A DNA stretch of 64,000 nt from positions 10,799,501 to 10,863,500 of the forward strand of contig OY727093.1 of the NCBI GenBank assembly GCA_963402885.1, read 5' to 3'. The translations under genes were made by a program, and so were the position numbers. Origin of the DNA: Antedon bifida (taxonomy: Eukaryota; Echinodermata; Crinoidea; Comatulida; Antedonidae). The notes beneath the pieces were generated by a model. The model was not told the origin of the DNA. It searched no databases and saw only the letters and a program-made list of their open reading frames with translations. Of the stretch, positions 1 through 61,432 are shown piece after piece (the stretch's first letter is position 1; each line of letters starts with the position of its first letter).

Positions 1-2904
1 TGTGAAAACACAGAATAATCGTATTATTTAGTATAATAACTATAATAGTAGTATTTATATATTTAACCGCAGCAACGTCAATTCTGTGCTAGCATGATAC
101 ACAATTTACTACTTTATATAGAATTAATATAGTAATAACTACTGAGGTTGAATTAAACGTGGACACTGACTGAGTGTATCGCGTATAACTATCGTCACGT
201 GTTTTTTTATATTATGTAAACATTGCCGAAATATGCATTTATTGTACAGTTTTCATTCCATTAAGCACACTCATAATTGGCGTAATTATCATCTTAACAT
301 AGTCTTCGTATATAGTAGAAAAGTCTGCTATATGTTTGCACCACATAGACATTCGTTTTAGGCCCATGGTCAATTCAATTATCCATGGTTAAACTGTTAG
401 GACTAAGTACATCAGCGGTTGTTTAAGAGTTCCATTTTCTGATTTTACTTGACGCGTTGTCTTTTAAACAAATGAAAATAATTGTTCATAATTGGGGTAA
501 TCTTGGGGTGTCTTTCGTTTTAGTAAGTAAATGGATTTAGCGTAAGAATACCATGCACTTCAGATAGAAAAAAATAATAGGATGTATGATAACCTCCGAC
601 TATTTTCTTCTTGTTTTATTAGAGTAGTAGTTATCAAATAGCCGATATGATTGTGCAAAGCGTCTTAGGGTATATCTCATGTTTTTATGTTATAGGCTAT
701 TAGTAATGTCTGATCAGGTCTAAAAAGAAAGACAAAACACCTGCGTAAGGACACAATGAGCTATGAACTTTTTGTACCATAACGTTTGTTATGTTGTGGG
801 TAAAATAGTAGGCCTGAATAACATACGTCGACCAAAACAGTTTGTTAAGTTTCTGATTGGCCAGTCGTGTAATAAATAATTACTGTATTCGCACGCGTAG
901 GCCTATATGTCTAAATGTAAAATCTAAGGATCGCTTTACTAATTGACTTAACTTAACTGTGTTTTACACGATCTCCCGACGGCGAGGTCTTAACAATACA
1001 AACATTTTCTACCATTACGTAATCGACGAATCACATCTATTATCATTTTAATGGTTTCTGTTTAACAGGAGTCGCTTATATTAAGGAAGAATTGTGTATT
1101 TCATAGGAATAGCTTTGTTTGTCATTTCAATACCATGTGGTCTTTGGTCAATCAGTTGAGGCCTATAGAAATATCAATGGATTATCGCGCATACGTCTTA
1201 GTTAACATATTTCTTTTAAGAAGGAAAATAGGTTGGTTAACTCATTTTGAGATTTTAACAATTAAAAAAAATCGATAAATGCTTTTTTTTTGTGTTATGT
1301 CATATGTAGGCCTACAGATACTGTTCTCAAGATACTGTGTTACCCGTTCATTCTGCACATGCGAGGGAAGGCCTCACATGAATCTTTAATCCTCCCTGCC
1401 TCTGGCCTATCGGTAATTATGTATGTGTTGAAGAGTCGCTATCCAATCGAATTTGGACATCTGCATATATGGAGAAGAAGTTTCCGGGTTCGAATCTCGG
1501 TTTCACTCTCACAGATTTCCTCATCTTTATCGTTTCAAATTAATTAATCAAATTTCAGTACATCACCGGGTGTATTAGAATTTATTGTACCTGTGATGAT
1601 TTTATATAGATCCAGTCACTGATACCCGCAGCATTAGTGTTATTTTTCAGTAATTTGCCTTTGGATTTAAATATATTTCATGATATACGATTCTGTTTTA
1701 TCTCTATCGAATATCCAAAATATTGAACATGATTTGTCGTGGTCAAATCATTTGACATTTGGCAACACTGAGCAAAGTAGTTGCTCTATGACTATATACA
1801 CGACACCAAATAAGGATATGAAATTTATTCTCACTCTTTCTCTGACATTGAAAGGCTCCGCCCTCCCCTCACCCATTACAATGAGAAATAAAGGACATTA
1901 GGCCTATGGAAAATACATGTCTGAAATTGTGTCTTGTCGATCAATGCATTTCTGTTCATGTGTATCACCCTCTCAAAACCTCCATCAGATTGAGTCTAAT
2001 CAACTTAAAACAGTATGTAATGCACTTAGGCCTACAACTTACCGTCGACTTGACTCAATACTCTGATTGACTACCGCTAACTATCTCCTCAGCTTTTCTT
2101 CTCGAATCCGTATTGCATTTTTTATAACTGTCATGCAAATTAAGCCTGTTTGTTGGCGGTGCAATACCCGGTGAGGTTGTACTTATTCACGTCCCCACAA
2201 ACAGACTACTGTATTAACTATTATTAATTTACGCCATATTACATTTACCATTAATTCATTACCAAATCATACCTTGTTTGTTTTTTTAACAAGATAGCCT
2301 ACATCTCCAAAATATCACGAAACTGCAATGTTTACAAGTGTATATTTTTACCTTTTCCGATAGCGTACTACTTTTACTTGGGCCATGGATGAAATAATTG
2401 GACCACCTCGCGTGATATTATAGAAACAGTTTCTACTAAATACCGTAGTCACATGTGTATGTATTGTATCCCCATCCTCAGTAACTTTTTTGCGCATGGT
2501 TTATGAAATTTTACACAATTAGCTTGAATTTGGTGAAAAGGGGTTCATCTGGAATTAGTTAACTATAATCATACATGGAACACATCACATAACGAAATGT
2601 CATTTTTATTTACAAATATTTTAATGATATCAGCACAATCATTGTATCAGAAGCAACAACAACAACGAACAGTTTTTTATGTTTAAATATCAAGAATGTA
2701 CAAAAGTTAATCATTTGAACAATATAATAATGATAATTTATCAATGAAAATAATAATAGTCACTAGCCGTTGTATACGTGCATGACTTTAAAAGTCAATC
2801 CCCTTAAACTAAAGCATTGTAGGCTTTACATTAATAAATAAATTGCTGCATGTGCAAAGGTGTGTATTAGCTTGTATGAAATAAACTTTTTTTTGGTTAT
2901 TCGA
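1..2904. other. Gene-free left flank
   Basis: I see no supported coding exon here. The open frames at 1290-1547 and 1680-1901 have no recognisable composition or family, and the first overlaps a SINE remnant. The stretch is AT-rich and contains several copies of the word AGGCCT. Distal regulatory sequence could be present but cannot be read from sequence alone. Confidence 0.5.
1442..1613 (+). repeat. tRNA-derived SINE, degraded copy
   Basis: A box B-like GGTTCGAATCTC lies at about 1488-1499. It is followed by a tail (TTTCAAATTAATTAAT, then ACATCACCGGGTGTATTAG) that matches the fuller copy at 52940-53180. Both copies also share TCCAATCGAATT just upstream. This copy has lost the box A half: the upstream block joins directly to CATCTGCATAT, the anticodon-arm region. 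Confidence 0.7.
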
Positions 2905-3020
2905 TTTGACCAATCCGCACAAGCGATGGATTATTCGGTCTGTGATGATATCGCTTGTTATTGGTCAACTCGCTTGCGTTGCGCCCACGTTCTTGTGTTA
3001 CGTTCTAGTTAGCAAGATAA
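2905..3020. mobile_element. Partial MITE related to the one at 3357
   Basis: This stretch repeats TTGCGTTGCGC..ACGT.CTTGTGTTACGT.CTAG, also found at 3459-3490. Its loop (AAGCGATGGATTATT) is in the opposite orientation to the loop of the 3357 copy. Only one terminal arm is clear. It lies just downstream of the last exon of the minus-strand gene ending at 3051. Confidence 0.5.
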
Positions 3021-3050
3021 CGTGGCTGTGTATATTCGAACTAAGCAGTA

Positions 3051-4933
3051 TTAATGTGTTGGAGACCGACTACTTGTTCCGAACGGTGACGGAACTTGTC
3101 GAAGCCACGGTGAATTCCGACGATATCCGAATTGTCCGTTGTATCCAAAATTTGGTTTGGCGTCTTGCATGAACTGCGCATGTCCATTTACTTGGTCTTT
3201 TGAGTGGCCAGCTACGGAGGATATAAAGAAAGATTTCGTAATATTATTTTTACTGGAAGGAATGTATGATGTACAGCACAAAGAACTTTTATAGTTACGA
3301 CGTTAACAGTACTGTATTATTATAGTACGAGGCTTTAAGCACAAGTGTCTCATATGCTTGGTTCGCACTTCGCAACGAAAGGACATAAGAGCAACGCAAA
3401 AGAGTTGACCAATGACACTGTTCAAAATAATCCATCGCTTGCCATTGATCAAATTACGTTGCGCTTACGTCCTTGTGTTACGTCCTAGTGGGAACCAAGC
3501 TTTATTTGGGACACACCTACGGGACAATACAAACGAGGGAAAGTATGTTTTAACACTACGGTCAATACCTATCAATCGGGAACTTCGTTTGGCTCAATAG
3601 GGGTTCTACTGTATATAAATATTTTTATTATAATAATAAAACGAAGAATGATGGTGCATTGGTGGCATTTATATTGTTAAAATGTGATGGTAAGGACGAT
3701 GACGTCATGTAAAATAATAATTTACCTTTGGCAGAATTGGGGGCGTCGTTTCTTGCGTGGAGGTATTTGTAGCCAGCGCCCGATTCGATGAACCTATCGA
3801 TGACGGGACCGTCGATCGAACACCCACCTTTGCTCTGAAAACAAATAAAAATATTTTTAAAAAAATATAAACAAAAAACAATTATATAATTATTCTAAAC
3901 AGATATTTATGCTCTTCTTGTCATCTTTGTCGACTGAAGCATATCAGGTATTAATATTTGTTTGCCTTCATTCATTAGTATTCATATATGTGGCCAATCG
4001 TCGTCACTGGTTAACATGACACATAAACTAACTATCGCTTTAGAATAAAACTGAAATGAAAAATTATTATTAGTTCATTAAGACCAACCGATGATTCTAG
4101 AGCAATAATGAAGACCAAGAAAATGCAATACATATAATTATTCATAGCTTCGTAGCTTAATGATATTATTATTAAGGACTATATTATTATATTTTTATCA
4201 TGTGGACAAGTGGTGTGATACATTAACCTTACTGTTCATACAATAATCGTATATAGATTGCTATAGCAAATAGCAACAAGATCTGTAATCTAATTATTGG
4301 AATATAATTTACCGATATACTTTCTCGCTGTACCAGTGATGTTTTACATATATAGCTCTATTTAGGATTTAAAATGCAAAATATCGGGGGATGGGGAGGT
4401 GAGGCGTGCAAATCAATTTGGTTGTTTACCAGACCTTCAAGAATCCACCCATGTTTAATAGTTATGATAGTACTAAAATACATAATATACGGAACTGGTA
4501 GAGCGTAGAAAGAAAATCTAACTAATGTAAGTTAAATTTACGATTAAAGTATCTTAACATGTACTTGACATCATTTTATGCCATAATACCCTACCAGGCG
4601 ATACTGAGCCCTATCGGGCGAAGATTAGCATGACTGAATGTAACATCATCTATTCTAACTATTCGTCTCGTTCTGACCTACCTGACCAGTTTTTTGAAGT
4701 ACCTCTGGCACTTTTTCCCGATGAAAATACACTTTAACGTGTTTGTCTTTTTGAGAATTATAAGGAGGGATAGCTGGCCCGAGTTTAGGTTGGGCCATAG
4801 CATAGTCATTTGATATACTACTAACAGCTATACAATCCAATAAAAAATCCTTTTCCTTCTGTTCCATTTCTTCTATAGTTGGCGATGGCGGTCCTCTATG
4901 AGACTTCTTCTTGATTTCTGCTTGATTCGGCAT
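3051..4933 (-). CDS. Small conserved protein of unknown function, gene B (three exons)
   Basis: I join three minus-strand exons: 4682-4933 (ATG at 4931-4933), 3726-3834 and 3051-3211 (stop TAA at 3051-3053). The donors are CAG/GTAGGT and AAAG/GTAAAT; the acceptors are TTTGTTTTCAG and TCCTCCGTAG. Phases agree at both joints (0, then 1), giving 522 nt and 173 aa. No signal peptide or membrane helix is evident. Residues about 20-82 resemble the first exon of the neighbouring gene at 5635-6655: both have an acidic/charged run, then a (L/I)LDCI motif, then a Y.(A/K)..YF segment and a final LQKT or LKKT. The C-terminus is rich in Gly, Tyr, Arg and Pro (GYNGQFGYRRNSP, PSPFG). That style is common in ciliary microtubule inner proteins, but I cannot name a family. 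The third exon rests on splice logic alone. Confidence 0.65.
3357..3503. mobile_element. MITE in intron 2 of gene B
   Basis: The terminal inverted repeats are about 44 bp. The left arm (GCTTGGTTCGCAC..TTCGCAACG) pairs with the right arm ending GTGGGAACCAAGC. An inner pair, TTGACCAATG and CATTGATCAA, extends the fold. There is no coding capacity. A target duplication is not clear. Confidence 0.7.
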
Positions 4934-5634
4934 TGTTTATTGTATTTACAATATATTCAGTTATTAATTAGAAATTAAAAGCCTTCCAATATATCTTCAA
5001 ATTGGTAAATTACTGGCGTGAACAACAAACACACGCGAATGTTTAGTTGAATGCTAAACCTGGTGAGGTGTCAACAACACAGCTTGTTGCTATGCAAGAG
5101 TCCCAAGAGTAAACATTAAAACGGAAAGAGAGTTCGTAACCAGCTTACAAGAGGTTCACCCTTTGTACTTTGCTACTTTAAATCGTAAACTATTGTAATG
5201 GAAACAATCGAATGAACAATCGCGTCATCTTAGGAGATTATAACTATCTTCACTTTGAATAGTCTTTGCCACAGTCAAACACTATATTCTATTAACCCAC
5301 TAACTAGGCATTTTCATTCTTATTTGGGGGTGTACCGTGGGTGCAAAAACTATCCTATATGATGTATATATTATTATATTACAGCAGTAAAAATAATCCT
5401 AACCCCTAACCCAAGATGCACTGTGTGACATCATTATGAAGATGCATTTAAATCATTCTCGTCCGTGACAAACTATATAATTTTATATAACCCTAATTGG
5501 AATGTCATTGAATAAGTTAGAATTTTAATTTGTCAGAATATTGCAAAACCTTGACCTTATAGATGAATCCAGTTTTCTAATAATTTATCGAATTATTAAT
5601 TATACATGTGCTGAGGACGAATGAAACAGGCATA
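4934..5634. other. Spacer between the two small paralogous genes
   Basis: No coding exon is seen. It should hold the promoter and 5' untranslated region of gene B (start at 4933) and the 3' end of gene A (stop at 5635). No TATA box is obvious. Confidence 0.4.
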
Positions 5635-6655
5635 TTAGGCTAATAATGTACGTTCAGACTTTACTACGAACCTTTGCATTCTAAACATCGCCCTCGACGG
5701 TAACTCTTCTGGCATTGTTCTCGACATCACACTCTGTACTCCTTTTTTACGCAGGTAGCCCATCGTGTGTGAATCTTTTAATGAATTATACGTAGGTACC
5801 AAAGGCCTGAATGGATACTTTGTAACGGCATTTGTGGCGACGACGCTATCTACGATGAACTCGTGACGTTTTTCCTGAAGCTGGACGGCAGTCGGTGGTC
5901 TTGGAAGTCGACGTCGACCAGAAAGGGTGTTACTCCAACGGGCTTGTGATTCATCATCTTTTGTGTTCTTTTTCTGGAAGTAGAATGCTAAATATCACTA
6001 ATTTGGATATTTATTTGATTCCAGTTGGTTCATATTGTTATAGCTCTGTCTACACTGTCAAACTTTATATGACAAAAAAATGTGATGCGCCCATATGGAC
6101 ATGATGATGTCATATCACTACCATATTTGGGTATATCACTACCATATTTAGGCACATGCCACTTTTTTGTCAACCGAGTTTGATAGTGTAGACAGAGCTT
6201 AAGAATACTAAAGATTATGTTATTTAATACACCAAATGCGCTCCATCCCGTTTGTAATTTGCAGCATCCCCAATCTTAAATTACGTCATATAAAACCAGC
6301 AATCAAACATGTATTGTTGCAATACATAGAATTAATTTGATTTGAAAAGTAAATATTTATAACGCACCTCTTCAGCGTAAACAGTTTTCTTGAGGACACT
6401 CTGTACCAAAGGCGATAAAAAGTACGCACGCGCGTAGTGATCACGAAGAGCGTCGTATTTCGGTATGATGTCAGGACTCCATTTGTAACGCCTCTTTTCA
6501 ATGGAGATGCAGTCAAGGATAAACAGATCCTCAAGCTCTTTGACTTGGTCTGGTGTTGGCTCAGGTGTTGATAAATTCTTGATAGAATCTTTGCGCCACA
6601 ATGGACTGTTAAACATAACTCGATGATGAAGACCACTGACTGTGGATGGTGACAT
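5635..6655 (-). CDS. Small conserved protein of unknown function, gene A (two exons)
   Basis: I join two minus-strand exons: 6368-6655 (ATG at 6653-6655) and 5635-5973 (stop TAA at 5635-5637). The donor is GAAGAG/GTGCGT and the acceptor is TCTACTTCCAG. Both joints are phase 0, giving 627 nt and 208 aa. The second exon is open for 113 codons and basic (for example SGRRRLPRPPTA and LRKKGVQSVMSRTMPEELPS). The first exon is related to exon 1 of gene B next door: LFILDCISI against FLLDCIAV, then a tyrosine/histidine-rich segment and VLKKT against VLQKT. Gene order and strand suggest an old tandem duplication. There is no signal peptide or membrane helix. The function is unknown; a cytoskeletal or ciliary role would be speculation. 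Confidence 0.65.
6042..6199. mobile_element. MITE, family with AGCTCTGTCTACACT termini (copy 1)
   Basis: The terminal inverted repeats begin AGCTCTGTCTACACTGTCAAA and end AGTGTAGACAGAGCT. The body contains two copies of ATATCACTACCATATTT. The element lies in intron 1 of gene A. A second copy of the same family lies at 21012-21148. Confidence 0.85.
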
Positions 6656-8557
6656 TCTCGAAGTGCTCTGTAATTTGTGAAAAATAAAAAGAAATTATGA
6701 TTTTTTAAGCTGTCCTAAAATAGTTATTTATAAATAAAAATTAATCAAATTTGTGTAAATAAATAAGTCGCCTTGCTTAAGTTCCAATACCAAACAGAAA
6801 TTCAAGTAGAAATGATGTTATTCAATTATTACTAAAGATTTGTTTTAAGTTATAATTTACCGCTCGTAAAGTTTACGTTATAATGCTTGTGTTAAATGAT
6901 GAAAAAGTTGGAAACAATGCTAAAAAATGAATTTTGTAAATATTAATAAGTCTTTATTGTGTGCGTGTAAGGAATGCCAAGAAAAATTTAATGAGAGACT
7001 AGTTTTATATTATTATTAATCGTGTCCCTGCGGTATTACCAAAATACACCACGGGCCTAAATGAGTAGGGCCTAGAGGTCCAATGATAAAAGTTCATTTT
7101 ATATCATTAATAAGACTACAAACATTTATAAACTATTTCTATGATTTCTTACCTAAACTTTGCGAAGATAAATAATATTCCTAATAGTAATAAGCTCTGG
7201 AATCGCAGACACGAACTTTTCAAGACTAAACAGCAACTACCGTAAATTAAAGTTAGCATTTGCTCATATACTTATCATCAATCAGTTTCTATAGTTACAA
7301 GTAATTTGAACTTTCATAATGTTTATATCGACTTTTTTTTATTAAGAATCATATCGAGTGTTCATTACAAGAAGAACAAAGCTTTCCAGTAGGGTCACCC
7401 CGTTAAAACCAAAAACTGTTGTCAGCAATTAGTAGACAGTGAATAGACCGAGGGTTGATTGACGCGGGTTGATGTATATTGTATAAAAAGACCCGCGGAG
7501 ACCACGATAAACAACTTTCTTGTCTTGTATTCATTTCTACTCATTATTAAATCTCCAGAAGTTGTACGATGATTTTTTTGTCACTGTGTCAATCATAATA
7601 AAAATAGTACCACGTTTAATTAAATTACAAATAACGATTGAAATTAAATAACATAAGAATAAATAATCATATAACAATTGCATCTATTTGAATAATAACA
7701 GTAGGCCTATAATAAAATTAATTACCAATTATATTTTTAATAATAATAATATTGACAACAAAAATAATTATAATAAATAGATAATAACATTAATTCCATC
7801 ATAAAGGTTAAGTATTGTTCTGTCAAAGATCATTTTGTGTTTTTGACTATTTCATTTTACTTGTATAATTCGCTTCTTATTTAAGATTTAAATGTTATTT
7901 TTTATACATTTCTTTTTGTTTTTATTTTGCCTTGTAAATAAAAAATCTTATACACGTGTGCCGCTGTTACAAAAGCGTTTTTATCAGTGATATGGAACAG
8001 TCCTGTTCTGACTTAGTGATTCGAAAGTTGTGTGCGAAACTTAGATTCCGATAAAGTAGTGCACGTACATATCTTACTGTTTGTTTTAACCTGTAATTTT
8101 ATATCTGGTAAAAGATAGTGAACAATTCAGTATTTTAAATTTAGCTTGGGGTACGACGACGTCCACTGTGAAGTTCAATACGCCCTCAACTTGTTGTATT
8201 TCTATGCGATTGGTACAATGTATACCCAATGACAAAGCACCGCATTAACTATTACCATAATAAAGGCAAGCGATAGCAATATAGTTAAGGTTTATTATTC
8301 GGGTTAAGCTAAGCGTAAAGAGTAATAACACAAGGAATATTCACGTCTGAAATGATGCGTGATAGGCGTTCTTTACATCGCACAAAATAACAATAGTAAA
8401 TTGACCCTGATCTGACTAAGCGCAAGATTTTTGATAGAACACACCCTTGACATAACTGACAATTTCACCGTGTATTGTAGATCTGTTATATATACAGAAC
8501 TGGGGGACCCTGTCAGTTGTTTTTGTTCTACGGTTTGGTAATAATATCAACGTCAAG
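6656..8557. other. Intergenic region between divergent genes
   Basis: This lies between gene A (minus strand, starts at 6655) and the four-helix membrane protein gene (plus strand, starts at 8558), so it should hold both promoters. A TATAAAAAG sequence lies near 7481 on the plus strand, about 1 kb upstream of the membrane protein start, with no visible exon attached. Otherwise the stretch is AT-rich without recognisable features. Confidence 0.4.
8487..8518 (+). promoter_or_regulatory. Candidate core promoter (TATA box and initiator)
   Basis: TATATATA at 8487-8494 is followed about 28 bases later by TCAGTT at 8513-8518, which fits an initiator. That start would give a 5' untranslated leader of about 43 nt before the ATG at 8558. 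The spacing is canonical but the motif is simple and could be chance. Confidence 0.4.
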
Positions 8558-14110: not shown

Positions 14111-14976
14111 GGTTCTAGGACACCTACCCCCTAGACAGTTACCCCCCGGATGTTTACCACCCGGACAACTACCCCCTTAGGACAACTACCCCCCGGACAA
14201 CTACCCCCTTAGGACAACTACCCCCTTAGGATAACTACCCCCTTAGGATAACAACCCCCCGGACAACTACTCCCCGGACAACTACCCCCTTAGGACAACT
14301 ACCCCCTTAGGATAACTACCCCCCGGGTAACTACCCCCCGGTCAACTACCCCCGGTCAACTACCCCCCGGTCAACTACCCCCCGGTCAACTACCCCCCGG
14401 TCAATTACCCCCTCCCTTAGGACTATATTTATGTTCAATCTTTTACTTTTGTTTACAATAATGAATAGTAATTCGTCAAAGTAACGAATTAAAATATAGT
14501 TATTAATTCCTATTATACACTGTTGCAGAGTCAGGTTGTTGAATGGTCTGGGTGGTAGTTGTCCGTCCGGGGGGTAGTTGTTCTAAAGGGATAGTTGTCT
14601 GGGTGGTAGTTGTCCAGGGGTTAGTTGTCCTACGGAGGTAGTTGTCCTAAAAGATTATTTGCCCTCGGAGTATTGTCCAAGTCCAGGAGGTAGTTGTCCT
14701 ACGGGGAGTATTGTGTCAGATGTAGTTGTCCGCGGGGTAATTACCCGGGGGGGGGGGGGGATTGTCCGGGGGTAATTGTTCCTAGGGGGTAATTGTCCGG
14801 GGGGTAGTTGTCCAGAGGGTAGTTGTCCTAAGGGGGTTGTTGTCCTAAGGGGGTAGTTGTCCGGGGGTATTTGTCCGGGGGGTAGTTGTCCTAAAGGGGT
14901 AGTTGTCCTAAGGGGGTAGTTGTCCAGGTGGTGGTTGTCCGGGGGGTAAATGTCCAGGGGGTGAATATCCGGATAC
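14111..14976. mobile_element. Foldback-type element: two inverted minisatellite arrays
   Basis: From about 14118 to 14424 the plus strand carries many units of GGACAACTACCCCC(TTA) or GGTCAACTACCCCCC. From about 14545 to 14970 it carries the reverse complement (GGGGGTAGTTGTCC, with or without TAAG). The outermost 55-60 bases of the two arms align as inverted repeats right to the tips. A 120-base AT-rich spacer separates the arms. The same 10-mer, GCTCTAATGC, flanks the structure at 14101-14110 and 14977-14986, as a target duplication would. There is no real gene: the open frame at 14655-15041 is the repeat translated. The arms are G-rich on opposite strands, so cruciform or G-quadruplex structures are plausible. 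Confidence 0.7.
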
Positions 14977-47167: not shown

Positions 47168-50100
47168 TTAAGTATTGGCTGCTTGCATCTGAAGACTTTC
47201 AAAATCTTTATTCCCTCTTATGTTGTTTTTCCTGAAACAAGAAAACGGCGTGTCATCGGTAATAGACTAAAAGATGCGGAGAAATATGTTTAAACGTAAA
47301 AGTAAAGAACCTAGCGTCGCTAGTGGGAACCACGCTTAAGTACTGTTCTTACCTCGTAATCATTTCAGCTTCTTCTATAGTCTGCGGAAGTGGCACATTT
47401 AGAGTTTCAGGCAGAAGTAGTGCCACCAGTCCAGAAGTCACTGACGTAAAACTGAACGCCACCAGTGGCAGAGGTGCCCATACTTTTTCGAAAAAAAGAA
47501 TCTGAGGGGCAAGCATCCCAGCCACTCGTGAAAAGAGGGAGCATATTCCTAATCCGGTGGTCCTGTAAACACGTTACAATTACGTTTCAGTCAATATGTG
47601 ACATGTATTGACACAAGTTACAATGGCAGCAAAAGAAGCGGGTGCTTGTTATTTTGTATTTTACAGACCATTTACACAGACCAGACAACATTCAGGAACA
47701 TATTAATATTATTTTACGAACTTATCATATAGTATTACTGTAAAGTAAATGTATTTAACTTGCCTAATGTTCGTTGGAAAAAGTTCAACAGTATATATAT
47801 AAACAATTCCAAATGCAGATGTAATAAAAAACTTGCCAATCATTGCTAAAGATGTTCTGAAAGCCACCAGTGTTACCGCTGAAAATGTACAAACATAATT
47901 ATTATTACTCTAAAATGGCCTCATAAAAGCAACACGTTGCTCATTAATAATTGAAAATTCGAATCGACCCGATTGAAAAATACATTGTTAAAAATAAATA
48001 GTTTAGTAATAATTGTAGCATATCAAAACAGAAGGTCGAATTCTGATTGTCAGTATATAGTACCGTATGCTCGATTATAATCCAACACACTAATTTAAGC
48101 TAAATTGGGACACTATTTGGAATTCATTGTTGATTCAATTCAGTATAATTGAACCCCACCCCAAACTTTCGTACCCAGGCAATCATGGACTAGTACAAAG
48201 TACACAGTACCATAAGACGCAACCACCAACCACCATATTTGGGAAGGTTGTTACTGTCCATTTGAGGTTCACACGACATGAGATTTTCAAATGTACAGCT
48301 TCCATTAAAGATGTATTGTCCTCCAAAAACATGAAAAATAATAAAAAATAAAATCAGACTTTAAATAGTTCATTTTGCAGTTTTAATAAAGTTATTCACT
48401 TCTGTAAAAAACAAATCAAAATAAAAAATTATTTCACTTATAAAGAGACAAAAAAAACGTTTAATTTTAACCAAAAACCATTACCTGACAGACAATTTAA
48501 GAATTTGTTGCTTTAAATCACATTTTTTCAGGTAAATCTGTTTTGCTCAAAGTGAATAACTATTACAATAAAATGGCATATTCAACAAAAAATGTGAAAT
48601 TTTTTTTTTAGGGAGACAATATATCTTTAAGCACAACGTTCTAACAAACAATGGCAAACTGAGTTTCCAAACAAAAGTTTGAATTTTTTTTTACATCGAA
48701 AAGTTTCAATAGAGCATGCGCATCGATGTGGACCGAATCTAGACTTACGAATCCATATATTGATGAAACAAGCAACACCACCAGCAACAAGGGTACCTGC
48801 TAGTGAACATCGTCTGCCCAGCTTCTGAATAAAGAACCAAGTGAACAGGTAGGCCAACAACTCGGTAACACCACCCAAGAAAGTTCCAATGTATACGTCG
48901 ACGTTTAGACCCTCAACACCATACGTCAAACCATAGTAGGCAAGGTTAACGGCAAACCTATTTTAAACATTAGTTTAAGCAAAATTTAGTTTTAGTTGGA
49001 ATATATCAAAAACCTATATCTGATGTGGCTGTAATGACATGACATTACACTTTTACCCTTTTTACTTTTTCGGTCACAGAGTTTTAGAGCGGAATAAATG
49101 AAAATAGTTTTAATACACAAATAAACAAGAAATGTGTCGTACCAACTGTATGTGATGTAAACAGTTTTTCTTCTCATCTGTGGATATCGAAGTATAATCA
49201 ACGGACTAGTCTTGGTACTTTCACTTGAATCCTATAATAAAAATCCATGCGTGACTAGTCCAGATAGTCATATTTCCACTCTAATAAGATGCGTGATTCG
49301 TGTTAAAAGCGAAAAAAATATGTGTTTTAGAGTAATTTTGGGGTGCTGAATTCAAATCTGCTGTTTACCCGGCTCAATTTTTAGATCTTCACCCTTAAAA
49401 TGTGAAAAACAAAATGGCCGCCATTTCAGACTTATTTTGGCTTATAACTTGACTTTTAAGTGACGTAGCAAGTTTCTATACCTATGTTTGTGATACTGAG
49501 GATTCCAAATATATTGTTATTAAAGTTGTAAATATTTTATTTCAGCCGCCATGTTGAAATCCAAGATGGCCGCCATTTTAAACGTATTTTGGCTTATAAC
49601 TTGACTTTTAAGTGACGTAGCAAGTTAAACATGGTTTCTATACCTATGTTTGCGATACTGAGGATTCCAAATATATTGTTATTAAAGTTGTAAATATTCT
49701 ATTTCAGCCGCCATGTTGAAATCCAAGATGGCCGCCATTTTAAACGTATTTTGGCTTATAACTTGACTTTTAATTGACGTAGCAAGTTAAAAATGGTTTC
49801 TATACCTATGTTTGTGATACTGAGGATTCCAAATATATTGTTATTAAAGTTGTAAATATTCTTTTTCGGCCGCCATGTTGAAATCCAAGATGGCTGCCAT
49901 CATTTTAAACGCATTTTGGCTTATAACTTGACTTTTAATTAACATAGAAAGTTAAAAATTGTGTCTATACCTATGTTTGTGATATTGAGGATTCCAAATA
50001 TATTGTTATTAAAGTTGTAAATATTCTATTTCATCCACCATGTTGAAATCCAAGATGGCCGCCATCATTTTAAACGTATTTTGGCTTATAACTTGACTTT

Positions 50101-56414: not shown

Positions 56415-56714
56415 AGTGTTATTAGATTGGTACTTATTCAACAACCAAACCTGACGCTACTGATCCCTGGATAGGATTTGTTCTATTGTGTGTAGGCTAC
56501 AGTTGTTAGAAATGTTAGTTATTAACATAACACAAGACTATATAGAATACCTTTAAATGCATCACCGCGCAATTCCTCGTTCAAGTTTAACTTTTAAATA
56601 TTTATTTATCTATTTTTTTAAAAACAAATGCTCCTGCGAGTTCCATGGGCTCAACACCGCACATTAGTATTGTATGCACCATGGTGAACTGACGTGCCTA
56701 AACGTAGCTCTTCC
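56415..56714. other. Shortened 5' flank of SLC22 copy 3
   Basis: At about 56526 the gene flank jumps to sequence equivalent to 33890 of unit 1, so about 1.4 kb found in the other units is deleted here. The presumed promoter of copy 3 is therefore only about 110 bp of shared sequence plus the LINE flank. Confidence 0.6.
56707..56714. repeat. Target-site duplication, left (GCTCTTCC)
   Basis: GCTCTTCC at 56707-56714 recurs at 61425-61432. The uninterrupted site in units 1 and 2 reads AGCTCTCCCGTCTCC, which matches a single copy. Confidence 0.7.
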
Positions 56715-56724
56715 CAATAGGTGT

Positions 56725-57275
56725 GGTGAATTTTGTCCAAGATGGGGAAATTTCTGTCCAGAATGGGGAAATATTTTGTCCAGAATAAGGACAAAAGCGA
56801 TAGGTGGCGCTATAATCGTGTCCAAGATGGGGAAGCTGTCCAATATAGAGAAATCCGATTTGTCCAAAATGGGGAAATTTCTGTCCAAGATGGGGAAGTG
56901 GTGGCGCTATATCGTGTCCAAAATGGGGAAATTTCTGTCCAGGATGGGGAAGTGGTGGCGCTATATCGTGTCCAAAATGGGGAAATTTCTGTCCAGGATG
57001 GGGAAGTGGTGGCGCTATATCGTGTCCAAAATGGGGAAATTTCTGTCCAGGATGGGGAAATGCTGTGTCAAAAATAGGGAAGCTGTCCAATATAGAGAAA
57101 TCCGATTTGTCCAGAATGGGGAAATTTCTGTCCAGAATGGGGAAGTGCTGTGTCCAAGATGGGGAAGCTATCCAATATAGAGAAATCCGATTTGTCTAAA
57201 ATGGAGAAATTTCTGTCCAGAATGGGGAAGTGATGTGTCCAAAATAGGGAAGCTGCACAATATAGAGAAGGCAAA
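56725..57275 (+). repeat. Left terminal array of the KDZ-like element
   Basis: The units are built on GTCCAAAATGGGGAAATTTC. Three consecutive 54-bp units containing GTGGTGGCGCTATATCGTGT span about 56889-57050. Blocks with AGCTGTCCAATATAGAGAAA separate them. Several overlapping open frames on both strands here are the repeat translated. Confidence 0.9.
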
Positions 57276-58172
57276 ACATTAAAACAACATAAGAAACTTT
57301 TTTTTTGTTTTAAAAACTTTAATTAAGTTCACACTTCTAATCTGAAAACATTACAAAATGTACATAATAATAACAGTACTAGTATGTTAACACTTTACAA
57401 GTACATTTGAAGTGGAAAGGTGTTCTATTAATTAATTAATTAACACCGTTATCAGCTAATTTTAAATATAATAAATATTTAGTGAGGGATGTGGTTCCAA
57501 TTTACTTCTGAAGTAAATTTTTACTGAATCTATACATTTATCTAACGTTAAAAACTACAGTGTATTATATTAAATTTCAACCATAAAAACCACAAAAAAA
57601 AATAGTACCGGCACCGCCATTATTATACCACATCAGTAAGAGTACAGAATATTTATTAATACATTTAATACATGTTGTCACTTCTTTTCCTTCTTTTTAT
57701 CCTTTTTATTTTTTCTTTATTTGTTTTTGTTTTTTTCGACCACAGGCCGCGGGTATTAATCTACCGTCACATGCAGTAATTCCACATGGAATTTCGACCA
57801 CATGATGGAATCCTTGAGTTATTATAGTAACTCAATGGTTTAAAATCAAACGTACACGCCGAATCATTAATTTTCAGCTATAAACAAAGTGATATCATTG
57901 ACAGATCGTGCAATATTTGGCCTAATTATTCTCATTTTACAATAGTATACGAGTGTTTGCATATTTGTAACATAGTATTAATTAGTGCTTTAAATGCGTT
58001 ATTTCCTACTCCAAATAGGCATAGTTTAGGGCTAATAATTCTGTTGATATTAAAATATGATTAACAGCCAGTGCTTCGCATTTTCTGTAAGGTTTATGTT
58101 CAATTAGATTTGTTTTTTTGGCTAAATTTCTCTCAAAATCTTTGTGTCTATACAAATGTTATTAGTGAGCAA

Positions 58173-58397
58173 CTATTCTGTCAATGTGTATTCCTTTAAA
58201 TTTACCAGGGCTACTGATGTTCTTCCCATTTTCATAAAAACTTTACCATGCTGCCGATCATCTCTAATTCCATCAAGAAAAATTTTCATATGGATCATTT
58301 CATGAGCCATAGTATTAAGCAATTCACTCGTCGAATCTGCAGCATTTTCACTATTAATATTTATTATATATGAGGAACCAATTTTATTCTTATGCAA
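58173..58397 (-). CDS. SprT-like zinc metalloprotease fragment in the transposon
   Basis: The frame is about 75 codons. A LLNTMAHEMIHMK helix carries the HExxH zinc motif, and about 20 residues later QHGKVFMKM gives a third histidine followed by glycine. This is the SprT/SPRTN pattern (HExxH, then HG..F). Upstream in frame there is a stop, and the first codon of the open stretch is TTG, so the start is uncertain. It may be a fragment or a 3' exon. The C-terminal zinc-ribbon usual in SprT proteins is absent. SprT-like domains occur in DNA-protein crosslink proteases and also as accessory domains of transposons; here it lies within the element, 58 bases below the protease stop. Confidence 0.55.
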   Translation of the reverse strand: MHKNKIGSSYIININSENAADSTSELLNTMAHEMIHMKIFLDGIRDDRQHGKVFMKMGRTSVALVNLKEYTLTE

Positions 58398-58454
58398 TTA
58401 AAGTGTTTCTCCGTAAACATTACCTAAAGGTACAAGAAACACATGATCCTCGGC

Positions 58455-60560
58455 CTAAGGTAACTTTCCTAAGTATACAATAGTGTTTATGTAGTTGTAG
58501 AGCGAATGTATGTCCTTAACCATCTGTTGGTCTTGCTTGTGGGTCTCTCTTCTTGCTTCGGTTCGTAACCGCTCTTGTTGATCATATATTTTCTTTTTAT
58601 GAGTACATCTTTCGCACATGGCATTTGTTATGCATTCCTTATGATAAGGCTTGTGGCATGTAAAGCAGTTGACTTGTGGAGTGATGGGTGTGTTGCAGCA
58701 GTTTGTCAGAGGTATTGCGGACATCCTTGATGCAGGGGCATTGTGGCAGTTATCAATTTCTAAATATCCACGCAAATCTCCCTTCTCGAATGCTTCAACA
58801 AGCTTTCGCCTAACAACCCTCTCGTCTTCTTCAAATCGTAGTGTTGATGGATCTTTTCCTGCACACAGTGCAGCAGCAAATGCTACACAAAAATGGCCAC
58901 AAGTGTTACTTGCATAAGGTTGTTGCTGTACACCATGTACGTGAAAATTCATGTTGGGAACGCTGGGTTCCATCAACTTGCATGCCACCTGAGTCAATTC
59001 TAACGGGTAATTTCTTGCATTCAATGTCTGTAAACTATCGTACACATCGACGTTACTATTGGTAAGTTGTTGGTACCAATGCTTGTCTGATATTGTAATC
59101 CAGTGCGAGTTTCTTAGGTTTATAAACTGAACATATTGTGTAGTCTTGACAAAATTGTGCATTTGCTGTTGATAGATGGTGTCTTGTAATCCACGTGTTT
59201 CTGGATAGTTTCTCTTTAGAATTATGTTGGCGGCATTTATAATCCTATTATCTACCTCATTATGTCTCTTTTCTACAAGCTTTTTATGGTGTAATCTTAG
59301 TTGGTATTCCTCCAGCCACCAGTCATTGGGTTCATCAGTCGTTTGTGCTACAACACTTGACTTAGGCGTTGTAATAATCAGTCTTCCAAGACTATCTTTG
59401 GTTGTTTTCAGACCGAACGACTTCGGTCGAAAAGCGCGTACGTGCTGCTTTGTCCAGTTACAGGATGCCCGGTTTGCGACGTCGCACGAAGCCCATTAAG
59501 CCATGGCATGTCTATTAATAAAGTATTAACTTTTGCACACCAAATATTCTCCTCTGTAGAATCAGCTTCTCTTCCTTCGAATGGAAAGAACATTGGTTCT
59601 GTTTGACCATCATAATGCAAATTGTTACCATAGTTTGCAACAACGTGTGTCATGTCCACAATTATTATATTTGGCTTATGTTTCATTGACATGCTTATGT
59701 CTGTGTAATCTCAAGGCGATTCTGCTCGTAGGACAAACTTAATTCCGTAGACTACTCCATGGGGACAATGTGATGTTAATATTCCCCCGGAACACCCCCA
59801 GATTTTCTTCATTATTTTATTGAAATTATTATGGTTCTTGGCTAAAGCCTTCCTTATACTACAAATAATGTCTAACTTACTTTCTTTTGATGCAAGATTG
59901 ATAGTTTTAGCTATTTTCTTGACTTCCTTAACAGTAGATTGGTGGAGCATTTCAAAAAGTCTCTCCTCACTCATATGTCTGCAGTCAGCAGTCAAGTTAC
60001 CGTCTTCTGAAACTTTCCTGAATTCTGTGTTAAATTTTCTTTTCTTGTATGCTCACCGATAAACGGAGACCATTCGTTCAGACCAGCCGTTATTGGAAAA
60101 GGATTTACGATGCCTCTAGATAGTATATGCAAACTAACTCGTTCATAAAATTCTATGCAATCTACTTTTTCTTTACATTCATGAGGCTTGCCAAGTTCAG
60201 ACAAAGCTGTCCTAAAATGAACCTTTCTGTTCACATCCATGATCATTATTGTGGGATGGTAACCACATATATTGCAATGCATATCTTCATTGATATTTGA
60301 TTGAGCTTCAAATGCTAAATAAGCATTCAACACCAATGTTTGATCAATTTCTATGCCCGATGTTTCGCATATCTGCTTAACAATGCTACCAGTAGCTATA
60401 TGATGATCCACGCCTGACCTAAGCCATAGGCAAACATCAAAATCCAATACAAAATGAATCATTATAGTTATAAATACCAAGTTCATAATCCTTGTAATGG
60501 TAAGTCATTGAACATTTTGGGCACATATTTGACAGTTTCTCTTTTATACAATTCGGAAAA
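58455..60560 (-). pseudogene. Broken KDZ-like transposase with Ulp1/C48 protease and zinc finger
   Basis: The coding sequence runs in one direction through several frames. The beginning (from about 60560; ATG at 60524-60526) has MCPKCSMTYHYKDYE and YNYNDSF, then a shift near 60435 to DVCLWLRSGVDHH, NICGYHPTIMIMD and NPFPITAGLNEWSPF. A second shift near 60030 leads to HMSEERLFEML and GCSGGILTSHCPHGVVYG; a TGA stop at 59711-59713 precedes PNIIIVDMTHVVANYG. A third shift near 59430 leads into an open frame to 58455. That last part has DWWLEEYQ and RIINAAN, then a Ulp1/C48 protease: SHWITIS (His), VDVYDSL (Asp) and SNTCGHFC (Cys). It ends in a C-x2-C...H-x2-C...C-x2-C finger (CFTCHKPYHKEC). Three frameshifts and one stop mean the transposase is dead, but the protease frame (235 codons from its first Met) is intact. 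Confidence 0.6.
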
Positions 60561-60589
60561 ATCGAATTTATTAGGCCTTGGATACTGTA

Positions 60590-61414
60590 GTTTCTCTAAT
60601 TTGGACACAGCACTTCTCTATTCTGGAGAAATTTGTAAAAATTATATTTTTCTGCTAAAAATTTCTCTATTTTAGACAACATTTCCCCACTTTGGACAAA
60701 TCGGATTTCTATATATTGGACAGTTTCTCTATTTTGGACACAGCCCTTCTCTATTCTGGGCAAAATTTCCCCATTTTGGACAAATCGGATTTCTCTATAT
60801 TGGACAGCTCTATTTTGGACACAGCACTTCCCCATCCTGGACAGAAATTTCCCCATTTTGGACAAATCGGATTTATCTATATTGGACAGTTTCCTTATTT
60901 TGGACACAGCAATTCCCCATCCTGGACAGAAATTTCCCCATGTTGGACAAATCGGATTTCTCTATATTGGACAGCTTCTATTTCAGACCCAGCATTTCCC
61001 CATTCTGGACAGAAATTTCTTCCTTTTGGACAAATCGGATTTCTCTATATTGGACAGCTTCTATTTCAGACACAGCATTTCCCCATCCTGGACAGAAATG
61101 TCCCCATTTTGGACACGATATAGCGCCACCACTTCCCCATCCTGGACAGAAATTTCCCCATTTTGGACACGATATAGCGCCACCACTTCCCCATCTTGGA
61201 GAGAAATTTCCCCATTTTGGACACGATATAGCGCCACCACTTCCCCATCTTGGGACAGAAATTTCCCCATTTTGGACAAATCGGATTTCTCTATATTGGA
61301 CAGCTTCCCCATCTTGGACACGATTATAGCGCCACCTATCGCTTTTGTTCTTATTCTGGACAAAATATTTCCCCATTCTGGACAGAAATTTCCCCATCTT
61401 GGACAAAATTCACC
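60590..61414 (-). repeat. Right terminal array of the KDZ-like element
   Basis: This is the reverse complement of the left array: units of CCCCATTTTGGACA(A/C), with three consecutive 54-bp units containing ACACGATATAGCGCCACCAC at about 61100-61245. It is about 270 bases longer than the left arm. Long open frames on both strands (60692-61451 and the reverse) are the repeat translated. Confidence 0.9.
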
Positions 61415-61424
61415 AACCCGTCTC

Positions 61425-61432
61425 GCTCTTCC
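61425..61432. repeat. Target-site duplication, right (GCTCTTCC)
   Basis: It matches 56707-56714. The host sequence resumes as GGCTCCTATTGTTAGGTAAC, which equals the sequence after the site in units 1 and 2. Confidence 0.7.

Follow-up and report, generated by a model that had tools for sequence, protein, structure and literature searches.

The window analysed here, a stretch of 64,000 nucleotides from the crinoid Antedon bifida (assembly GCA_963402885.1, contig OY727093.1, positions 10,799,501 to 10,863,500 of the forward strand), holds at positions 56715-61424 a DNA transposon of 4710 bp that is bounded by the tips CAATAGGTGTGGTGAATTTTGTCC and GAGACGGGTTGGTGAATTTTGTCC. We propose, with a probability of roughly 0.7, that this element belongs to a family of cut-and-paste transposons with terminal inverted repeats, arms of the foldback type and one protein of about 1400 residues that joins zinc fingers, a DDE-type core, a Ulp1-like protease, a PHD finger and a SprT-like metalloprotease, with the roles for these parts that are set out below. 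Movement by cut and paste is suggested by the anatomy of the element. The window copy is itself internally deleted and non-autonomous. Transposases with Ulp1-PHD tails are already known, but among the papers listed from the open-licence PMC literature, judged by titles and the beginnings of abstracts, we found no SprT domain on a transposon.

The limits of the element are marked by the sequence GCTCTTCC, an exact 8-bp direct repeat that lies flush on both sides, and by two arms that face each other:

56707-56714, no strand: left copy of the target-site duplication (TSD), GCTCTTCC (flush exact 8-mer on both sides and empty site)
61425-61432, no strand: right copy of the TSD, GCTCTTCC (flush exact 8-mer and empty site)
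56715-57269, plus strand: left arm, on the 3′ side of the open reading frames, with tip CAATAGGTGTGGTGAATTTTGTCC and 21 inward-facing monomers of about 21 bp in 54- and 85-bp blocks (complementarity, blocks, tips and monomer scan)
60596-61424, minus strand: right arm, on the 5′ side of the open reading frames, with tip GAGACGGGTTGGTGAATTTTGTCC and 29 inward-facing monomers counted from 60591 (complementarity, blocks, tips and monomer scan)

Fourteen loci were fetched besides the window, six of which (L017-L022) have one kind of tip only. At all nine loci with two tips, namely the window and L009-L016, the flush repeat is exactly 8 bp long when 12 flanking bases are compared. The flanks and TSD are common to the window and L012, which points to one insertion followed by a segmental duplication, and L014, L015 and L016 likewise share theirs and represent one insertion, leaving six independent 8-bp duplications after these loci are merged. 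There is also an empty site: the two flanks, joined with one copy of the TSD, align without gaps and with few substitutions to about 33.99-34.14 kb and 45.37-45.52 kb of the window, both of which are paralogous units within it. This agreement of tips, 8-bp TSDs and empty site exceeds chance by far, and it shows insertion with an 8-bp stagger. A preliminary description of this DNA had reported the shared 8-mer of a transposon and the empty site in two units of the window, and had looked to other genomic copies for ends that coincide with the arrays and 8-mers; all of this is borne out, the last at eight two-ended loci beyond the window. Its statement that Zisupton-type elements make 8-bp duplications also agrees with PMC12730594. 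When 286 bp of the left end were searched against the genome, at least 130 matches were obtained; grouped by eye, these fall into at least about 30 loci with arm matches, a lower bound with 40 of 55 candidates scored.

The left arm extends about 0.55 kb inward and the right arm 0.83 kb, and their outer 163 bp are 99% complementary, while the outermost nucleotides of the tips, about 10 on each side, differ (CAATAGGTGT and GAGACGGGTT) and do not form an inverted repeat. Array-built termini had been described before, and the arrays stand, but not the plain unit of about 54 bp: both arms consist of 54-bp and 83-85-bp blocks that are themselves composed of monomers of about 21 bp of the form GTCCA(A/G)(A/G)ATGGGGAA(A/G). 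Allowing up to three mismatches, all 21 monomers of the left arm are on the plus strand and all 29 of the right arm on the minus strand, so that every one faces inward. Of the 51 monomer matches in the whole window, 50 fall inside the element, and shuffling the other 59 kb gives a mean of 1.2 chance matches per shuffle (five single-base shuffles). The number of monomers varies between 17 and 32 per orientation in the other eight two-ended loci. Some of the fetched loci hold further insertions: in L012, about 1.3 kb at 3345-4667 is missing from the window twin and has about 6 bp repeated at its edges, and in L009 the copy on C11 is split at about 2813-7625 by a nested insertion of about 4.8 kb, with about 7 bp repeated at the edges. 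Variant right-hand tips, GAGAGGGGTTGGTGAATTTTGTCC, occur at L021 (9694) and L022 (9448) and suggest a second array-ended subfamily, with no coding match within 10 kb.

The coding capacity of the family is best seen in its relatives, in which the full domain order is C2H2, SWIM-like, CxC4, DDE-like core, Ulp1, PHD and SprT. At C10:8.18 Mb (L028, L049, L054), a single intact frame of 1464 codons without introns (L054 2349-6740, equal to G000:C10:8176648-8181039) contains all of these domains, keeps D519, D719, E828, the Ulp1 His and Cys and the HEMIH motif, and carries a 45/51-bp coding repeat between the core and Ulp1. The C13 copy (L010, L026, L047), which has arms and an 8-bp TSD, shows this architecture split over two overlapping frames, one of 882 codons and one of 486, the latter with Ulp1, PHD and SprT and no stop. 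A 391-residue frame with Ulp1, PHD and SprT is found at C1:27.37 Mb (L032), the copy at C8:18.69 Mb (L050, L033) is broken yet aligns over residues 72 to 1459, and diverged remnants occur at C8 1.457 Mb, where short stretches are 56-86% identical. The C2H2 and SWIM-like parts are assigned from motifs visible in the sequence; the N-terminal 440 residues of L047 had no Pfam match. The proteases had been described as cargo; a Ulp1-like protease and a SprT domain are borne out, but the 1464-residue frame makes them the C-terminal part of one long protein. An alignment of Ulp1-PHD-SprT searched against viral contigs yielded no relative (63 pattern-matching stretches, none confirmed).

Compared with these relatives, the coding part of the window copy is severely reduced, and what is left of it reads as follows, from the C-terminal to the N-terminal end of the protein:

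58173-58397, minus strand: SprT-like metalloprotease frame, with HEMIH at 58290-58304 and HGKVF at 58236-58250 (Pfam PF10263, E 3.9e-7, above cut-off)
58455-59495, minus strand: open frame of 346 codons with Ulp1-PHD and the start of SprT (open reading frame and comparison with relatives)
58605-58700, minus strand: PHD-type zinc finger (weak PF00628 match of L032; tail profile matches solved PHD fingers)
58704-59228, minus strand: Ulp1-like (C48) protease domain (residues invariant in five of five aligned sequences; Pfam C48 above cut-off in L032 only)
59408-59710, minus strand: piece of the transposase-like core with the putative second catalytic Asp in IIIVDMTH, 59645-59668 (tblastn to the 1464-residue relative; conserved D719)
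59711-60052, minus strand: middle piece of the transposase-like core, CPHG at 59756-59767 (tblastn to the 1464-residue relative; alignment)
59992-60504, minus strand: piece of the transposase-like core with CNICG and the putative first catalytic Asp in MIMDVNRK, 60223-60246 (tblastn; alignment)
60437-60523, minus strand: CxC4 remnant, CPKC at 60512-60523, ending at the deletion point of about 2.63 kb (PF18717, E 0.0016, below cut-off)

By tblastn, the window frames align to the 1464-residue relative only at residues 418-796 (in pieces) and 1043-1442, and about 420 N-terminal residues are absent. Two stretches of the near-complete C13 copy are missing from the window element, one of about 2.63 kb near 60523 and one of about 219 bp at 59423, which accounts for the loss of the N-terminal fingers and of the segment with E828; this segment is present in L009, L010, L011 and L013 and missing from both the window element and its twin L012. 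The first 24 or so codons of the 346-codon frame are out-of-frame sequence from beyond the 219-bp deletion, and two nonsense codons, a TAG and a TAA that share one frame, split Ulp1-PHD from SprT. As had been noted before, the protease frame has outlived the transposase frame: of the coding frames that survive, the Ulp1-PHD stretch is the longest, whereas little remains of the transposase part, and the other long open frames of the element are repeat sequence inside the arrays. An AlphaFold model made from the single sequence of the 346-residue frame had a mean pLDDT of 41.6 and was unusable.

The SprT-type HExxH frame reported earlier for the window is upheld, with PF10263 above the Pfam cut-off in the window as well as in L028, L026 and L032. 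The signature is HEMIH...HG..F, and both the HExxH and the later His are present in the window; a SprT profile searched against 177,635 PDB sequences (E<=10) found only two Spartan sequences (E 0.0033 and 0.0043). The domain shares its signature with the host proteins SPRTN/Spartan and GCNA/ACRC, Spartan being the sole solved relative found; unlike in those proteins, it is here joined, within a mobile element, to a transposase-like protein and a Ulp1-like domain. SprT is in frame with Ulp1-PHD at the C13, C10:8.18 Mb and C1:27.37 Mb loci. Over 127 codons, its C10 and C13 versions agree in 61% of amino acids, and the differences fall 41/26/78 on codon positions 1/2/3, to be compared with 58/37/111 in Ulp1 (168 codons) and 131/78/263 in the core (411 codons); for none of the three did the NG86 method return a dS. 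Because of the shared frame at three loci and the skew towards third positions, we conclude that SprT is part of the protein of the element and is under coding constraint like the rest. A separate SprT gene was considered and ruled out by the frame that it shares with Ulp1-PHD at three other loci. It is very improbable that SprT is a chance capture of a host gene, or a host pseudogene lying inside the element, with no role: the nonsense codons that cut it off in the window would fit such an origin, but the frame and order are the same at all three loci, the domain shows coding constraint, and 8 of the genome's 11 SprT matches belong to the family of the window element. By their features, the other three resemble a GCNA-type gene (two exons, C10:9.645 Mb) and a SPRTN-type gene (C14:0.354 Mb).

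Upstream of SprT, the His, Asp, Gln and Cys of the Ulp1-like domain occur in this order and are invariant in all five aligned sequences, in agreement with the protease residues described earlier; in the window, they lie in SHW (59100-59108), YDSL (59031-59042), QQQP (58917-58928) and TCGHF (58890-58904). Pfam C48 (PF02902) is above cut-off in L032 (21.2 versus 20.7 bits), and L033 falls just below. What had been called a treble-cleft-like finger is better described as PHD-type, with a weak match of L032 to PF00628 (E 0.0018, below cut-off) and PHD fingers as the best PDB matches of a profile of the whole tail (E 0.00084; Spartan, E 0.026). A C-terminal Ulp1 followed by PHD is shared with the tails of Ginger1 and Mutator transposases (PMC2836005), from which the window family differs in its additional C-terminal SprT, its CxC4 cluster and its lack of Pfam matches to MULE or to an integrase, which in Ginger1 is of the Gypsy type. 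One could also suppose that Ulp1 and SprT mature a polyprotein by cleaving it into the transposase and a partner, and act on neither SUMO nor crosslinks. All parts do share one frame, and SPRTN is able to cleave itself (PMC7826251), but the PHD finger between the two proteases suggests a chromatin task, and we consider such self-processing improbable.

To what kind of transposon does this protein belong? The cysteine-rich, transposase-like protein of the preliminary description is recovered, with CxC4 (PF18717) above the Pfam cut-off in L049 (7.9e-10), L047 (2.5e-6) and L050 (2.7e-7), and with a remnant in the window that stays below it (E 0.0016). The three CxC4 matches in the genome all belong to the family of the window element. 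In the core, the three lineages compared agree in D519, D719 and E828 (C10 numbering), whose spacing is DDE-like. In vertebrates, the host protein HMGXB3 may carry a similar CxC4/transposase-like region; the single paper found on HMGXB3 and transposases deals, by its title, with pogo elements. The element had been called KDZ-like, and the CxC4 domain, which is described as associated with KDZ transposases and lies directly upstream of the core, speaks for that part of the claim. Membership in KDZ is another matter, given that the KDZ transposase model PF18758 matched neither the frames of the relatives (E<=1) nor their pieces (E<=10); a genome-wide search with it was also empty, although none of its 14 control genomes gave a match either. 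Searches for the two families named at the outset found C48 in one relative (L032) but not KDZ proper, and we do not file the element as a KDZ member, even though CxC4 points that way.

It is nevertheless a serious possibility, to which we would give somewhat less than even odds, that this is a true KDZ transposon of the Zisupton/Dileera type with a catalytic domain too diverged for the Pfam model. Its TSD has the 8 bp of Zisupton and Dileera rather than the 7 bp of Kyakuja (PMC12730594), and CxC4 and the conserved D...D...E would be expected of such an element. Against it stands the missing PF18758 match; Pristionchus Zisuptons were linked to those of other animals, and animal Zisuptons placed in a tree, by means of this model (PMC9297572). 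In sum, the window family resembles Zisupton and Dileera in its 8-bp TSD, inverted termini, CxC4 before a DDE-like core and very long transposase, and it differs from them in the absence of a PF18758 match, the Ulp1-PHD-SprT tail and the array-built arms.

The long inverted arms with inner tandem arrays place the element in the foldback structural class, to which the sea-urchin TU elements also belong. A CxC...CxH SWIM-like motif is present in the protein, and SWIM is associated with Mutator-like elements (MULEs); in MULEs, the SWIM motif follows the core, whereas here it precedes it. A MULE of the foldback type, with long arms, TSDs of 8-10 bp and Ulp1(+PHD) tails, would also share its anatomy and TSD size with Tetris, which was put in Mutator by its authors (PMC4079207), and Ulp1/PHD tails are known from Mutator and Ginger1 (PMC2836005). 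Given that CxC4 is present instead and that the scanned frames and pieces gave no MULE transposase, SWIM or integrase match in Pfam, we consider this assignment unlikely. With Tetris and Galileo, the family has in common long inverted arms, inner tandem arrays of variable number, a TSD of 8-10 bp and many defective copies (PMC4079207); it differs in having a nearly complete coding copy, a monomer of about 21 bp and a transposase of no assigned superfamily.

Several observations weigh against the proposed transposon with its single long protein. No Pfam transposase family, KDZ included, matches the core (whole-core frames, E<=1; pieces, E<=10), so DDE activity is read from the three conserved acidic residues, the first of which is lost in the decayed L052. 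C48 exceeds its cut-off in just one of the five Ulp1-region sequences and has no match in the window frame, L028 or L026, and the Ulp1 profile found no Ulp/SENP, and nothing else of relevance, among PDB sequences. The SprT of L033 has a decayed HExxH, and comparison with L032 gives 40% identity and a weaker codon skew (64/46/94 over 129 codons). The sole near-complete copy bounded by arrays, that on C13, has a frame break, and no array arms were seen within 1.46 kb upstream and 2.35 kb downstream of the intact C10:8.18 Mb frame. The arms of the C13 copy are as far as about 2-3 kb away from its coding part, and any ends of the C10:8.18 Mb copy may therefore lie beyond the scanned flanks.

Searches with these flanks found, besides the locus itself and a nearby 242-bp repeat, only short and widely shared repeats (40 of 1368 and 40 of 413 candidates were scored, and weaker matches would not show). 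The monomer scan of L054, L032, L036, L040, L050, L033, L052 and L030 gave 0 or 1 match each. Given these counts and the short repeats of the flanks, we do not place these lineages in array-ended elements. The C10:8.18 Mb frame is perhaps a gene that has been domesticated, or else an old element whose ends went unrecognised. A more far-reaching version, which we regard as doubtful, would treat the family as a superfamily of animal DNA transposons in its own right, a sister of KDZ with its own SUMO- and SPRTN-type proteases that dismantle the strand-transfer complex without waiting for host factors; the C10:8.18 Mb gene would at the same time be a descendant domesticated by the host, with all three enzyme activities retained.

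Other repeats and frames were also observed. At 14118-14962 of the window, there is a small second foldback-like element with inverted arrays of units of about 15 bp (TTGTCC..GGGGGTAG) and GCTCTAATGC on both sides; its monomer resembles the TTGTCC-N4-GGGG of the main element, it is present in high copy (406 first-look candidates, 40 scored), and no coding partner was found for it. From about 27.4 to 62 kb, the window contains a cluster of duplicated units, in which 300-bp blocks appear two or three times, about 11.3, 12.65 and 8.7 kb apart; most are 93-100% alike and a few 65-80%. A fragment resembling a transporter (Sugar_tr, E 0.014, short of the cut-off) belongs to these units, and only one of them has the element. 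A tandem array with a 162-bp unit (3.8 copies, 94% matches) lies at 49472-50100. L017 holds a truncated copy and, about 5 kb from its arm, an unrelated-looking open frame of 688 residues (2448-4511) that has a CxC...CxH SWIM-like motif and is perhaps another transposase.

Little is known of how eukaryotic transposases are released from DNA once strand transfer is complete, or of the factors that remove them. The domains of the window family suggest how this might happen. The C2H2, SWIM-like and CxC4 parts would bind DNA or chromatin, the zinc fingers possibly recognising the repeated monomers of about 21 bp, whose inward-facing copies are probably binding sites of the transposase; in Galileo, extra sites in the arms are thought to be of help (PMC4079207). 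The DDE-type core (Asp...Asp...Glu) would cut and join with the 8-bp stagger, and Ulp1 might remove SUMO from the transposase or from nearby chromatin. DNA that has single- and double-stranded features switches SPRTN on, and the protease degrades bound protein irrespective of its sequence (PMC7826251); SUMOylation directs crosslinks to it (PMC8674535). By analogy, the SprT domain may be activated at the gaps left by strand transfer, which combine such features, and may digest the transpososome held tightly there, or other proteins on the DNA, which would make the joints repairable. Given that the product of strand transfer has both the DNA features and the tightly held protein, a fused SprT could clear the complex and Ulp1 could govern the SUMO state of its proteins; Ulp1 or OTU tails have been proposed as an aid to transposition before (PMC2836005). 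The defective window copy would rely on protein made elsewhere.

Foldback-type array termini are often found without a coding partner. The window family supplies one for termini of this kind; Tetris, for example, is a foldback element that lacks it (PMC4079207). Furthermore, a transposase fused to SPRTN- and Ulp1-type proteases would make clearance after strand transfer genetically testable, and such a fusion would tie transposition to the SUMO/SPRTN pathway of crosslink repair.

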